NCBI RefSeq assembly: GCF_002844195.1
Contig: NZ_PEND01000008.1
Coordinates: 1-64,000, forward strand
From: Halegenticoccus soli
GTDB taxonomy: Archaea > Halobacteriota > Halobacteria > Halobacteriales > Haloferacaceae
Reading direction: 5' to 3'
Length of the DNA stretch: 64,000 bases
Shown: piece after piece, positions 18,884-21,552 of the stretch
Position numbering within the stretch: the stretch's first letter is position 1
Layout: every line of letters begins with the position of its first letter
The notes under the pieces: model-generated
What the model saw: only the letters and a program-made list of their open reading frames with translations
What the model was told of the DNA's origin: nothing
Database searches by the model: none
Program-made: the position numbers and the translations under genes

Positions 18884-18981
18884 GCGGGCACTCTATGCAA
18901 CGGGCGCATAAGCTTTTTCGAGCGTCGGCGTCGGGCGGGCGAATCAGCACCCCTAAGCGAGGGGCCGACCTAGGTCGGGCG

Positions 18982-19902
18982 ATGACCGAGAGCGCGCCCG
19001 CGCTTGCGGCGGACGCCGACCTCGACGCGATCCGCGAGGCGCTGATCGAGTGGTACGAGGCCGACCACCGGGAGTTTCCGTGGCGGCGCACGGACGATCC
19101 CTACGCGATCCTCGTCTCCGAGGTGATGAGCCAGCAGACGCAGCTCGACCGGGTCGTCGAGGCGTGGGAGGCGTTCCTCGACCGCTGGCCGACGGTGGAG
19201 GCGCTCGCCGCGGCCGATCGGGGGGACGTGGTGGCGTTCTGGACCGGGCACAGCCTGGGGTACAACAACCGCGCGAAGTACCTCCACGAGGCGGCGAAGC
19301 AGGTCGTCGAGAAGTACGACGGGTCGTTCCCGCGGACGCCCGAGGAGCTTCAAGAGCTGATGGGCGTCGGCCCGTACACGGCGAACGCGGTGGCGAGCTT
19401 CGCGTTCAACGAGGGCGACGCGGTCGTCGACACCAACGTGAAGCGCGTGCTCCACCGCGCGTTCGACGTGCCCGACGACGACGCCGCGTTCGAGGCGGCG
19501 GCGCGGGACCTCATGCCGGGGGGGCGATCCCGCGTGTGGAACAACGCGATTATGGAACTCGGTGGCGTCGCCTGCGGGAAGACGCCCCGGTGCGACGAGG
19601 AAGGCTGTCCGTGGCGGCGGTGGTGCAACGCCTACGAGACGGGCGACTTCACCGCGCCGGACGTTCCGACACAACCGAGCTTCGACGGGAGCCGCCGGCA
19701 GTTCCGCGGACGTGTGGTTCGACTCCTCGGCGAACATGACGAGATGGATCTGGACACGCTTGGGCACCGGATTCGAGTGGATTACACACCCAACGGTGAA
19801 CACGGGCGAGAGTGGCTTCGAGATCTCCTTTCAGACCTTTCTGATGACGGTCTCGTCCAGATTGAGGAAGGAAACGATCAGACAACTGCCCGACTCCGAT
19901 AA
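18982..19902 (+). CDS. mutY: A/G-specific adenine glycosylase
   Basis: Base-excision repair enzyme that removes A opposite 8-oxoG. The 306-residue protein has EFPWRRTDDPYAILVSEVMSQQT (catalytic Glu), the HhH motif ELMGVGPYTANAVASFA with catalytic Asp in AVVDTNVKR, and four Cys for the 4Fe-4S cluster, spaced C-x5-C-x4-C-x5-C instead of the usual C-x6-C-x2-C-x5-C. The C-terminal 8-oxoG-recognising MutT-like domain is reduced to a winged-helix-like tail of about 80 residues. From about 19690 the base composition falls sharply, matching the island downstream, so the 3' end may have been replaced by recombination. Confidence 0.93.
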   Translation: MTESAPALAADADLDAIREALIEWYEADHREFPWRRTDDPYAILVSEVMSQQTQLDRVVEAWEAFLDRWPTVEALAAADRGDVVAFWTGHSLGYNNRAKYLHEAAKQVVEKYDGSFPRTPEELQELMGVGPYTANAVASFAFNEGDAVVDTNVKRVLHRAFDVPDDDAAFEAAARDLMPGGRSRVWNNAIMELGGVACGKTPRCDEEGCPWRRWCNAYETGDFTAPDVPTQPSFDGSRRQFRGRVVRLLGEHDEMDLDTLGHRIRVDYTPNGEHGREWLRDLLSDLSDDGLVQIEEGNDQTTARLR

Positions 19903-19944: not shown

Positions 19945-19952
19945 CGACTCAC
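19945..19952. repeat. Left copy of 8-bp target-site duplication
   Basis: CGACTCAC directly abuts the left terminal repeat of the 648-bp element and is identical to 20601-20608. Confidence 0.75.
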
Positions 19953-20600
19953 GGCTCTGTTGAAGTCATTTAAATCTGACAATACCGGTGTGCTGAATAG
20001 AGGGCGCGTACGCACCGGAGCGATGGGGAGCACTCTCCCAGTAAGGCTCGCGCTGTTTCAGTCTTCGACCGGGGCGTGTTCATCGTAGTACCGCACGAGA
20101 ATGGCAAGGTACACGAGTTTGCACGTAAGCGCGATCCCACCACCAAGCGCCGTCACCCGTGGATTGCGCTTGTACGCGCCGTAGAGACCATAGCAGTACG
20201 CGACGGCGTTCAGCTCGTTGAGAACACCGGGTAGGTTGGCCTCAAATACCTCGTGATCGTCTTCGAGCCAGAGTTGCTCTCCGAGGACGCTCCGGCTTAT
20301 CCACGCGTCCTTGTTCTCCGGCTCCGGGAAAAGAATTGGATTGATGACGACGTAGAGCAGCGTCAAACCGACCATCCGCCAGTCACGACGGTACAGGCCG
20401 AGTAGTAAGACTGGCCCCATTGGGAGACGGGTATATCCACTCCACGGATTCGTGTGTCGTGCCCAAAACTCATCACTGAGAACGTCGGTAAGCGCCATAG
20501 AGTCAGGTACGCGAAAGCCTCGTATCAATTTGCTGTATACTCCCTCTGCGTTCAACACGATTACTGAAACCTATCACCAATTGAGGGTTTCAACAGAACC
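19953..20600 (-). mobile_element. 648-bp IS6-like non-autonomous element carrying a DUF6653 gene
   Basis: The ends are imperfect 15-bp inverted repeats, GGCTCTGTTGAAGTC at left and GGTTCTGTTGAAACC (complement of the right end), matching at 12 of 15 positions. An exact 8-bp direct repeat CGACTCAC sits immediately outside each end (19945-19952 and 20601-20608). The GG-x-x-CTGTTG terminus and the 8-bp target duplication are the pattern of IS6-family elements. No transposase is present. The only gene inside encodes a membrane protein, so this is a cargo-bearing MITE-like element that would need a transposase in trans. Confidence 0.75.
20058..20498 (-). CDS. DUF6653-like membrane protein carried by the mobile element
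   Basis: 146 residues. The N-terminus DEFWARHTNPWSGYTRLP is followed by three or four hydrophobic helices, one being GLTLLYVVINPILFP. The HANPWSG-like motif and helix order match what I remember as DUF6653, a family of unknown function common in haloarchaea. The ATG at 20498 is preferred over the TTG at 20558, and a TATA-like GAGTATACA lies upstream (about 20536-20544). The gene lies wholly between the terminal repeats of a 648-bp element and is less G+C-rich than the chromosome. It is not a transposase. Confidence 0.7.
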   Translation of the reverse strand: MALTDVLSDEFWARHTNPWSGYTRLPMGPVLLLGLYRRDWRMVGLTLLYVVINPILFPEPENKDAWISRSVLGEQLWLEDDHEVFEANLPGVLNELNAVAYCYGLYGAYKRNPRVTALGGGIALTCKLVYLAILVRYYDEHAPVED

Positions 20601-20608
20601 CGACTCAC
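20601..20608. repeat. Right copy of 8-bp target-site duplication
   Basis: CGACTCAC directly abuts the right terminal repeat of the 648-bp element and is identical to 19945-19952. Joining the flanks restores an uninterrupted sequence. Confidence 0.75.
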
Positions 20609-20703: not shown

Positions 20704-21552
20704 ATGACTGCCCGTGTCTATTACCATCATCCCGAGGATTCTCAATATTCTCTCGCGTATGTCACTCAGAACAGGGATGAGATAACGACATCCGGGCAAA
20801 ATGCGATCATTGAGCACTACGATTTCGATGAGGAGTTCTTTGTGCTGTATACGAATCGTGGGGCGAGTGGTACGGTTGAGGACCTTGACGACGAATTCGA
20901 AGACGTACTCGATGAGATGTCACCACAGGATCGGACGATCACCGTACGGTTGCTCCAGATCTTCGAGGAGATCGTCGAGGAAAAGGAACTGGAAGAAGAA
21001 GAGAAGCTGGAGATCTACAAGCAGATCGAATTAGAGCGGATTCCCGATGCTATCGCACGCGTCGATTGGACCGGTACCGCCGTCGATGTCGCAGGGCAGC
21101 TTATGTCTACGCTTATTCTGAAACACGCGCTGCCCAACGCGAACCACCGGACTTCGATCAGTATAGCTCAGTGGTACTTAGAGAGCATCAAAACCGGGTT
21201 TTCGTTTCCTGACTTTGCGACCGAAGCGTACGACTGGGAGACGTGGGTCAATGAGTACATTACAGAATCGAAGCGGCTTCTCACGGTTCGGCGGAATACG
21301 ACGGCGTTCTCGTTACTCTCTGAGTGGGGGTGTGACACCGTTATACGGAAGAATGGCATCGAGATCGTTCTTGCAGAGTACGACCTCGATTTCACCCGTT
21401 CAGAAGCTTACGTGCACTATGGGGATATGCATACCGAACTCTGTACGGACTTCCTCATTGAATCCGTCACGCGTGCTGGACACGACGAGCTCATCAGTAC
21501 CGAAGGTATCGGAAAAGCGGAGTTTGTCTCGTTTCTCGAAGAGGCAGAATAA
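20704..21552 (+). CDS. Doc/Fic-like protein with a modified active-site motif
   Basis: 282 residues, AT-rich. The central helix pair contains HALPNANHRTSISIAQWYLE, which lines up with the Doc/Fic motif H-x-F-x-D-x-N-K-R-T. The His, Asn and Arg are kept, but the acidic metal ligand is Asn and the Lys is His. Upstream helices are acidic (ELEEEEKLEIYKQIELERI). Fic proteins transfer AMP to targets and Doc phosphorylates EF-Tu. Whether this one is active is unclear. No Phd-type antitoxin precedes it, but a 34-aa gene lies just after it on the opposite strand. The family assignment rests on this one motif. Confidence 0.5.
   Translation: MTARVYYHHPEDSQYSLAYVTQNRDEITTSGQNAIIEHYDFDEEFFVLYTNRGASGTVEDLDDEFEDVLDEMSPQDRTITVRLLQIFEEIVEEKELEEEEKLEIYKQIELERIPDAIARVDWTGTAVDVAGQLMSTLILKHALPNANHRTSISIAQWYLESIKTGFSFPDFATEAYDWETWVNEYITESKRLLTVRRNTTAFSLLSEWGCDTVIRKNGIEIVLAEYDLDFTRSEAYVHYGDMHTELCTDFLIESVTRAGHDELISTEGIGKAEFVSFLEEAE

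Follow-up and report, generated by a model that had tools for sequence, protein, structure and literature searches.

We present a 648-bp unit in the genome of Halegenticoccus soli that is very probably a mobile insertion cassette (MIC), namely a pair of IS5-type ends around a passenger gene, devoid of a transposase of its own and presumably mobilised in trans. Its inverted ends are related to those of an insertion sequence, its passenger gene is unrelated to transposition, the flanking direct repeat is 8 bp long both in the window (the whole stretch of 64,000 nucleotides that was analysed) and in the IS5 partners, and intact relatives with the same ends hold an IS5-type transposase. A sequence-only reading had proposed a transposase-less mobile element of the IS6 type with DUF6653 cargo; the absence of a transposase and the nature of the cargo were borne out, and the family has to be corrected from IS6 to IS5. 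The unit belongs to a large family of one-gene cassettes that is apparently undescribed so far, and related IS5-type elements seem to move such cassettes between genomes.

The element proper occupies positions 19953-20600 and starts 50 bp beyond the stop codon of a mutY-like gene (Table 1). Read inward, its ends GGCTCTGTTGAAGTC and GGTTCTGTTGAAACC match at 12 of 15 positions and at 11 of the first 12, the left end departing from the consensus past base 12. The DUF6653 gene on the minus strand is the sole convincing gene between them, and no transposase-like open reading frame (ORF) is present in the interior. The coordinates, the CGACTCAC flanks, the 12-of-15 ends, the length and the single DUF6653 gene had all been given exactly by the earlier reading.

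Table 1. Features of the element and its left neighbour (positions in the window).
Feature	Position	Strand	Remark
Left neighbour, outside the element: HhH-GPD glycosylase gene, mutY-like	18895..19902	+	Pfam HhH-GPD 69.5 bits
Left target-site duplication CGACTCAC	19945..19952	.	Also at the left junction in G008
Left element end GGCTCTGTTGAA with subterminal motif GTGTGCTGAATA	19953..20012	+	Other cargo elements have the motif at their left ends too
Passenger gene DUF6653, 146 aa from the ATG at 20498	20058..20498	-	Pfam PF20358 81 bits, E 9.7e-23
33-nt block directly upstream of the DUF6653 ATG	20508..20540	-	Identical in G105
Right element end, inward reading GGTTCTGTTGAAACCCTCAATTGGTGATAGGTTTCAG...	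20541..20600	-	47 of 60 bases as in the distal end of L238, an IS5 element
Right target-site duplication CGACTCAC	20601..20608	.	

An alternative GTG start at 20558 would extend the passenger gene to 20058-20558 (166 aa); the ATG is the likelier start because the GTG-initiated frame begins within the conserved end. Comparison with homologs gave dN/dS values of 0.05-0.25, and the protein is therefore under purifying selection. The AlphaFold2 model (mean pLDDT 87.9) is all helical, and the product is likely a small helical membrane protein as far as the prediction goes. Since no PDB structure matched the model with E below 0.001 (best E 0.79), no biochemical function is proposed. The 33-nt block upstream of the ATG is identical in genome G105 despite a dS of about 2.2 for the DUF6653 gene, that is, with synonymous sites near saturation, and it is a possible candidate for a promoter or regulatory site.

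DUF6653 homologs were detected in 91 of the 170 genomes of the host's family. Paired ends were found in three of the 30 fetched DUF6653 loci, namely the window, its counterpart in a congeneric species (G008) and locus L034, the last with 39% identity and a duplication matching at 7 of 8 bases. Because most homologs are devoid of such ends, the element does not explain the general spread of DUF6653, and the suggestion that it does so in haloarchaea finds little support. The predicted second copy does exist: G008 carries the unit with both ends and shares its left junction together with CGACTCAC, and diverged copies at other places in G042 and G333 retain traces of one end; in G105 and G274 the gene stands without ends. 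About 2.1 kb of window DNA is absent from G008 to the right of the element (L028, right of position 2040), the break falling exactly at the element end, and the right repeat is gone there since new bases abut the end. No empty site of this insertion turned up in sequenced DNA. Between the window and G008 the DUF6653 gene has a dS of 0.087 and the neighbouring mutY-like gene one of 0.57, a contrast that, judged from the sequences, could reflect recombination across the region. The 2.1 kb missing from G008 includes a 282-aa ORF at 20704-21552 with sub-threshold Pfam matches only.

The family assignment is carried by the ends. Transposases enclosed by GGCTCTGTTGAA ends belong to the IS5 family (NF033579 217 bits for P0001; DDE_Tnp_1 53 bits), the transposons concerned likewise produce 8-bp duplications, and their plasmid relatives carry the RefSeq annotation names ISHla2 and ISHxa2. 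The autonomous elements that were sampled span 1.3-2.5 kb from end to end; their transposase starts some 52 bp inside one end, and the passenger region between transposase and far end differs each time. One IS5 clade, whose transposases are 67-70% identical to P0001, has the distal end of the window's type: five of its elements combine a transposase-side end GGCCTTGTTGAAACCCTT with such a distal end, flanked by an exact 8-bp duplication in four and a 7-of-8 match in one. The window's right end aligns over 60 bases with the distal end of L238 at a score of 34, and shuffling the subterminal part 300 times never gave more than 11; scores of 28-32 were obtained with L232, L235 and L247, and one of 20, not above the best shuffle there, with L234. 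The left end fits the partner distal ends more poorly (10-16). By sequence comparison, then, the ends of the 648-bp unit are those of the haloarchaeal IS5 lineage to which ISHla2 and ISHxa2 are related.

Traces of this partner clade are present in the same genome. Contig C5 bears the clade's transposase-side end with a broken transposase start, and on C7 a piece of the transposase is joined directly to a distal end of the window's type, matching at 45 of 60 bases. The genome assembly yielded no intact transposase from the cognate clade. These relics, together with the rearrangement in G008 that stops exactly at the element, would also fit a decayed IS5 element whose transposase was removed by an internal deletion, and which came to enclose a host gene through a later rearrangement and does not move as a unit. 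Such a decayed element is unlikely, however, as the ends are recognisable, the duplication is exact and the interior holds no transposase-like ORF. The plan also recurs with other genes in many independent elements, and each time a gene would have to have been gained between two intact ends.

Two candidates were rejected as partners of the cassette, the intact IS5 element on contig C14 of the same genome and ISHtu1 in pHTUR02; both have GGCCTTGTTTAGACGC-type ends and sit inside a solo GGCTCTGTTGAA end. Pattern and homology matches, on which the tally for this genome rests, revealed further transposase-less elements: one of 1207 bp on C11 with an HTH_10/BAT regulator and the exact duplication GGGAGGGA, one of 124 bp on C12 with the exact duplication ATTCGTAC, and one of 2023 bp on C1 with a 441-aa ORF lacking a Pfam match and a repeat CCGATTGT that was read by eye.

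An IS6-type, cargo-bearing MITE, as had first been supposed, would account for the 8-bp duplication and for a GG...TGTT start resembling the IS6 ends in PMC7986276. It is highly improbable on the evidence of the ends, for GGCTCTGTTGAA ends enclose IS5 transposases. The sole match to PF13610 (IS6-type transposase) detected in the window's genome has ends GGCACTGTCTAG or GGTAGTGTTCAG, and so do the delimitable IS6-type elements of the sampled relatives, clear ends being present in some loci only. The intact IS6 element with matching ends that this reading called for was thus not found among the delimitable elements of the genome and sampled relatives, no sharing of ends with IS6-type elements was seen in the sampled loci, and an IS6 origin was rejected. 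Neither does the MITE label fit, for a MITE is short and non-coding and the unit bears a conserved gene; non-coding relatives do nevertheless occur (below).

The repeats by themselves are no proof of transposition, since the window contains 10 cases of an exact 8-bp repeat around a 12-of-15 inverted repeat (span up to 3 kb), against a mean of 1.8 in order-1 Markov sequences. What had been called the full signature of a transposition event is structurally there; its reality follows from comparison with a family of elements. When bacterial and archaeal genomes were scanned for GGCTCTGTTGAAACCCTCA, 83 stretches were obtained, mostly haloarchaeal with some from Methanomicrobiales; 80 of these database loci supplied the 85 pairs of inward-facing GGCTCTGTTGAA-like ends that were examined. 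Exact 8-bp flanking repeats surround 26 of the 85 pairs (0.0013 expected), and none of the pairs has a flanking repeat of a different length between 4 and 12 bp. As GGCTCTGTTGAA-ended elements recur with exact 8-bp duplications, the 648-bp element is real. That a host DUF6653 gene lies between accidental repeats is scarcely credible, although the pattern alone is about as frequent by chance in so GC-rich a window, given the 60-bp match of the right end to IS5 ends, the unit with both ends in G008 and the recurrence of the ends as an 8-bp-duplicating family.

With plasmid and whole-genome loci added, the set grew to 56 distinct elements, mostly from haloarchaea, that combine GGCTCTGTTGAA-type ends with exact 8-bp duplications; their classes were set by length and transposase match and their cargo ORFs verified in part. 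Six are short and non-coding (96-257 bp), 24 including the window's are transposase-less (363-2442 bp), four are compact IS5 elements (937-940 bp) whose ends are related but not the same, and the other 22 are longer (1266-2547 bp) and contain an IS5 transposase, among them one nested pair and one with an inserted IS6-type gene; because the sample was picked by ends, these proportions are no census. L057 and L077 are among the members that interrupt ORFs, and the frame reads through once the element and one repeat are removed. Uninterrupted sites for L222 and L057 were sought among plasmids, and no such record was found. Methanogen bins likewise contain short elements that have GGCTCTGTTGAA ends and exact 8-bp repeats (L073, L078 and L087, on Methanoregulaceae/Methanomicrobiales contigs).

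Similar arrangements are known in other systems. Bacillus cereus has modular IS231-MIC231 elements, which belong to the IS4 family (cited in PMC2266710). Like the window unit, MIC231 combines the inverted ends of an insertion sequence with passengers in a modular cassette devoid of transposase, and both have relatives in which transposase and passenger occur together; MIC231 is bacterial and of the IS4 family, whereas the window unit is archaeal and of the IS5 family. To our knowledge the two are unrelated in sequence. The unit, having no transposase, is not a transporter IS (tIS), in which transposase and passenger share one element, whereas the related L235 and L234 are of that kind.

ISH2 of Halobacterium, mobilised by ISH8 of the IS4 family (PMC10264941, PMC3119063), resembles the unit in being haloarchaeal, without a transposase and provided with a short ORF unrelated to transposition, and it is mobilised in trans; it differs in its 10-bp duplications, ISH8-type ends and one kind of ORF, as against the 8-bp duplications, IS5 ends and many cargo genes of the window's family. 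ISHla2 and ISHxa2 share with that family the transposase lineage and the terminal GGCTCTGTTGAA and, unlike the window unit, encode the transposase. One haloarchaeal transposon passenger has been published as an individual case, Hlac_3088 of Halorubrum lacusprofundi (PMC10544981). It is comparable as a passenger gene, its transposon may be of another family, and it travels with a transposase, unlike the DUF6653 gene. In the literature searched, mostly outside subscription journals, nothing was found on DUF6653, ISHla2 or ISHxa2, nor any earlier description of these IS5 passengers.

What is known of cassettes and passenger-bearing insertion sequences comes chiefly from a small number of IS families in bacteria. 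The archaeal IS5 lineage described here is associated with many single-gene cargos, metabolic and translation genes included, across much of the Halobacteria. A wider reading, which is advanced tentatively and stands slightly below even odds in our judgement, is that this lineage constitutes a haloarchaeal gene-shuttling system, in which autonomous elements, routinely bearing one or another passenger downstream of their transposase, and transposase-less cassettes with the same ends and with cargo exchangeable in place move host genes singly between genera. If mobilisation is true, it would offer a concrete path by which haloarchaea could exchange genes as frequently as they do; the cassette-borne genes are currently annotated as ordinary host genes.

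For the 648-bp cassette, we infer mobilisation in trans, a route of capture and a mechanism of cargo change, which may be envisaged as follows. A DDE transposase of the haloarchaeal IS5 lineage, from the clade with the matching distal end, would bind both ends of the unit in trans and move it, leaving the 8-bp duplication, and the passenger, which encodes a conserved helical, probably membrane, protein under selection, would travel with its own upstream region. The cassette would probably have originated when a transposase paired its own outer end with a distant solo end and took the DNA between them, and interiors could later be replaced with the ends kept.

The variety of passengers in the family is considerable. 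Pfam and NCBIfam matches comprise an HTH_10 regulator, a CAAX protease with DUF5518, a formate/nitrite transporter, an HNH nuclease, GYD, glyoxalase, alpha/beta hydrolase, tyrosyl-tRNA synthetase, a phosphate permease, a pilin, a polyketide cyclase-like protein and periplasmic-binding proteins. Two species of Natrialba carry elements at the same site, with the same flanks and duplication AAACTGAC (L138:374-2043 and L144:3971-4857); about 130 bp of the left end and 116 bp of the right end are nearly identical base for base, and the interior holds a tyrosyl-tRNA synthetase and a small regulator in L138 and an unrelated 170-aa ORF in L144. Recombination in the ends, or different losses from a larger ancestor, would both fit this difference in cargo. 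In pHALXA01 of Halopiger, an ISHxa2-type IS5 element of 2490 bp (L220:2449-4938) contains two passenger ORFs and is flanked by an exact 8-bp duplication. It has a relic IS end just past the transposase and extends on to the distal end, and this one case suggests, from the sequence, capture by skipping of the inner end.
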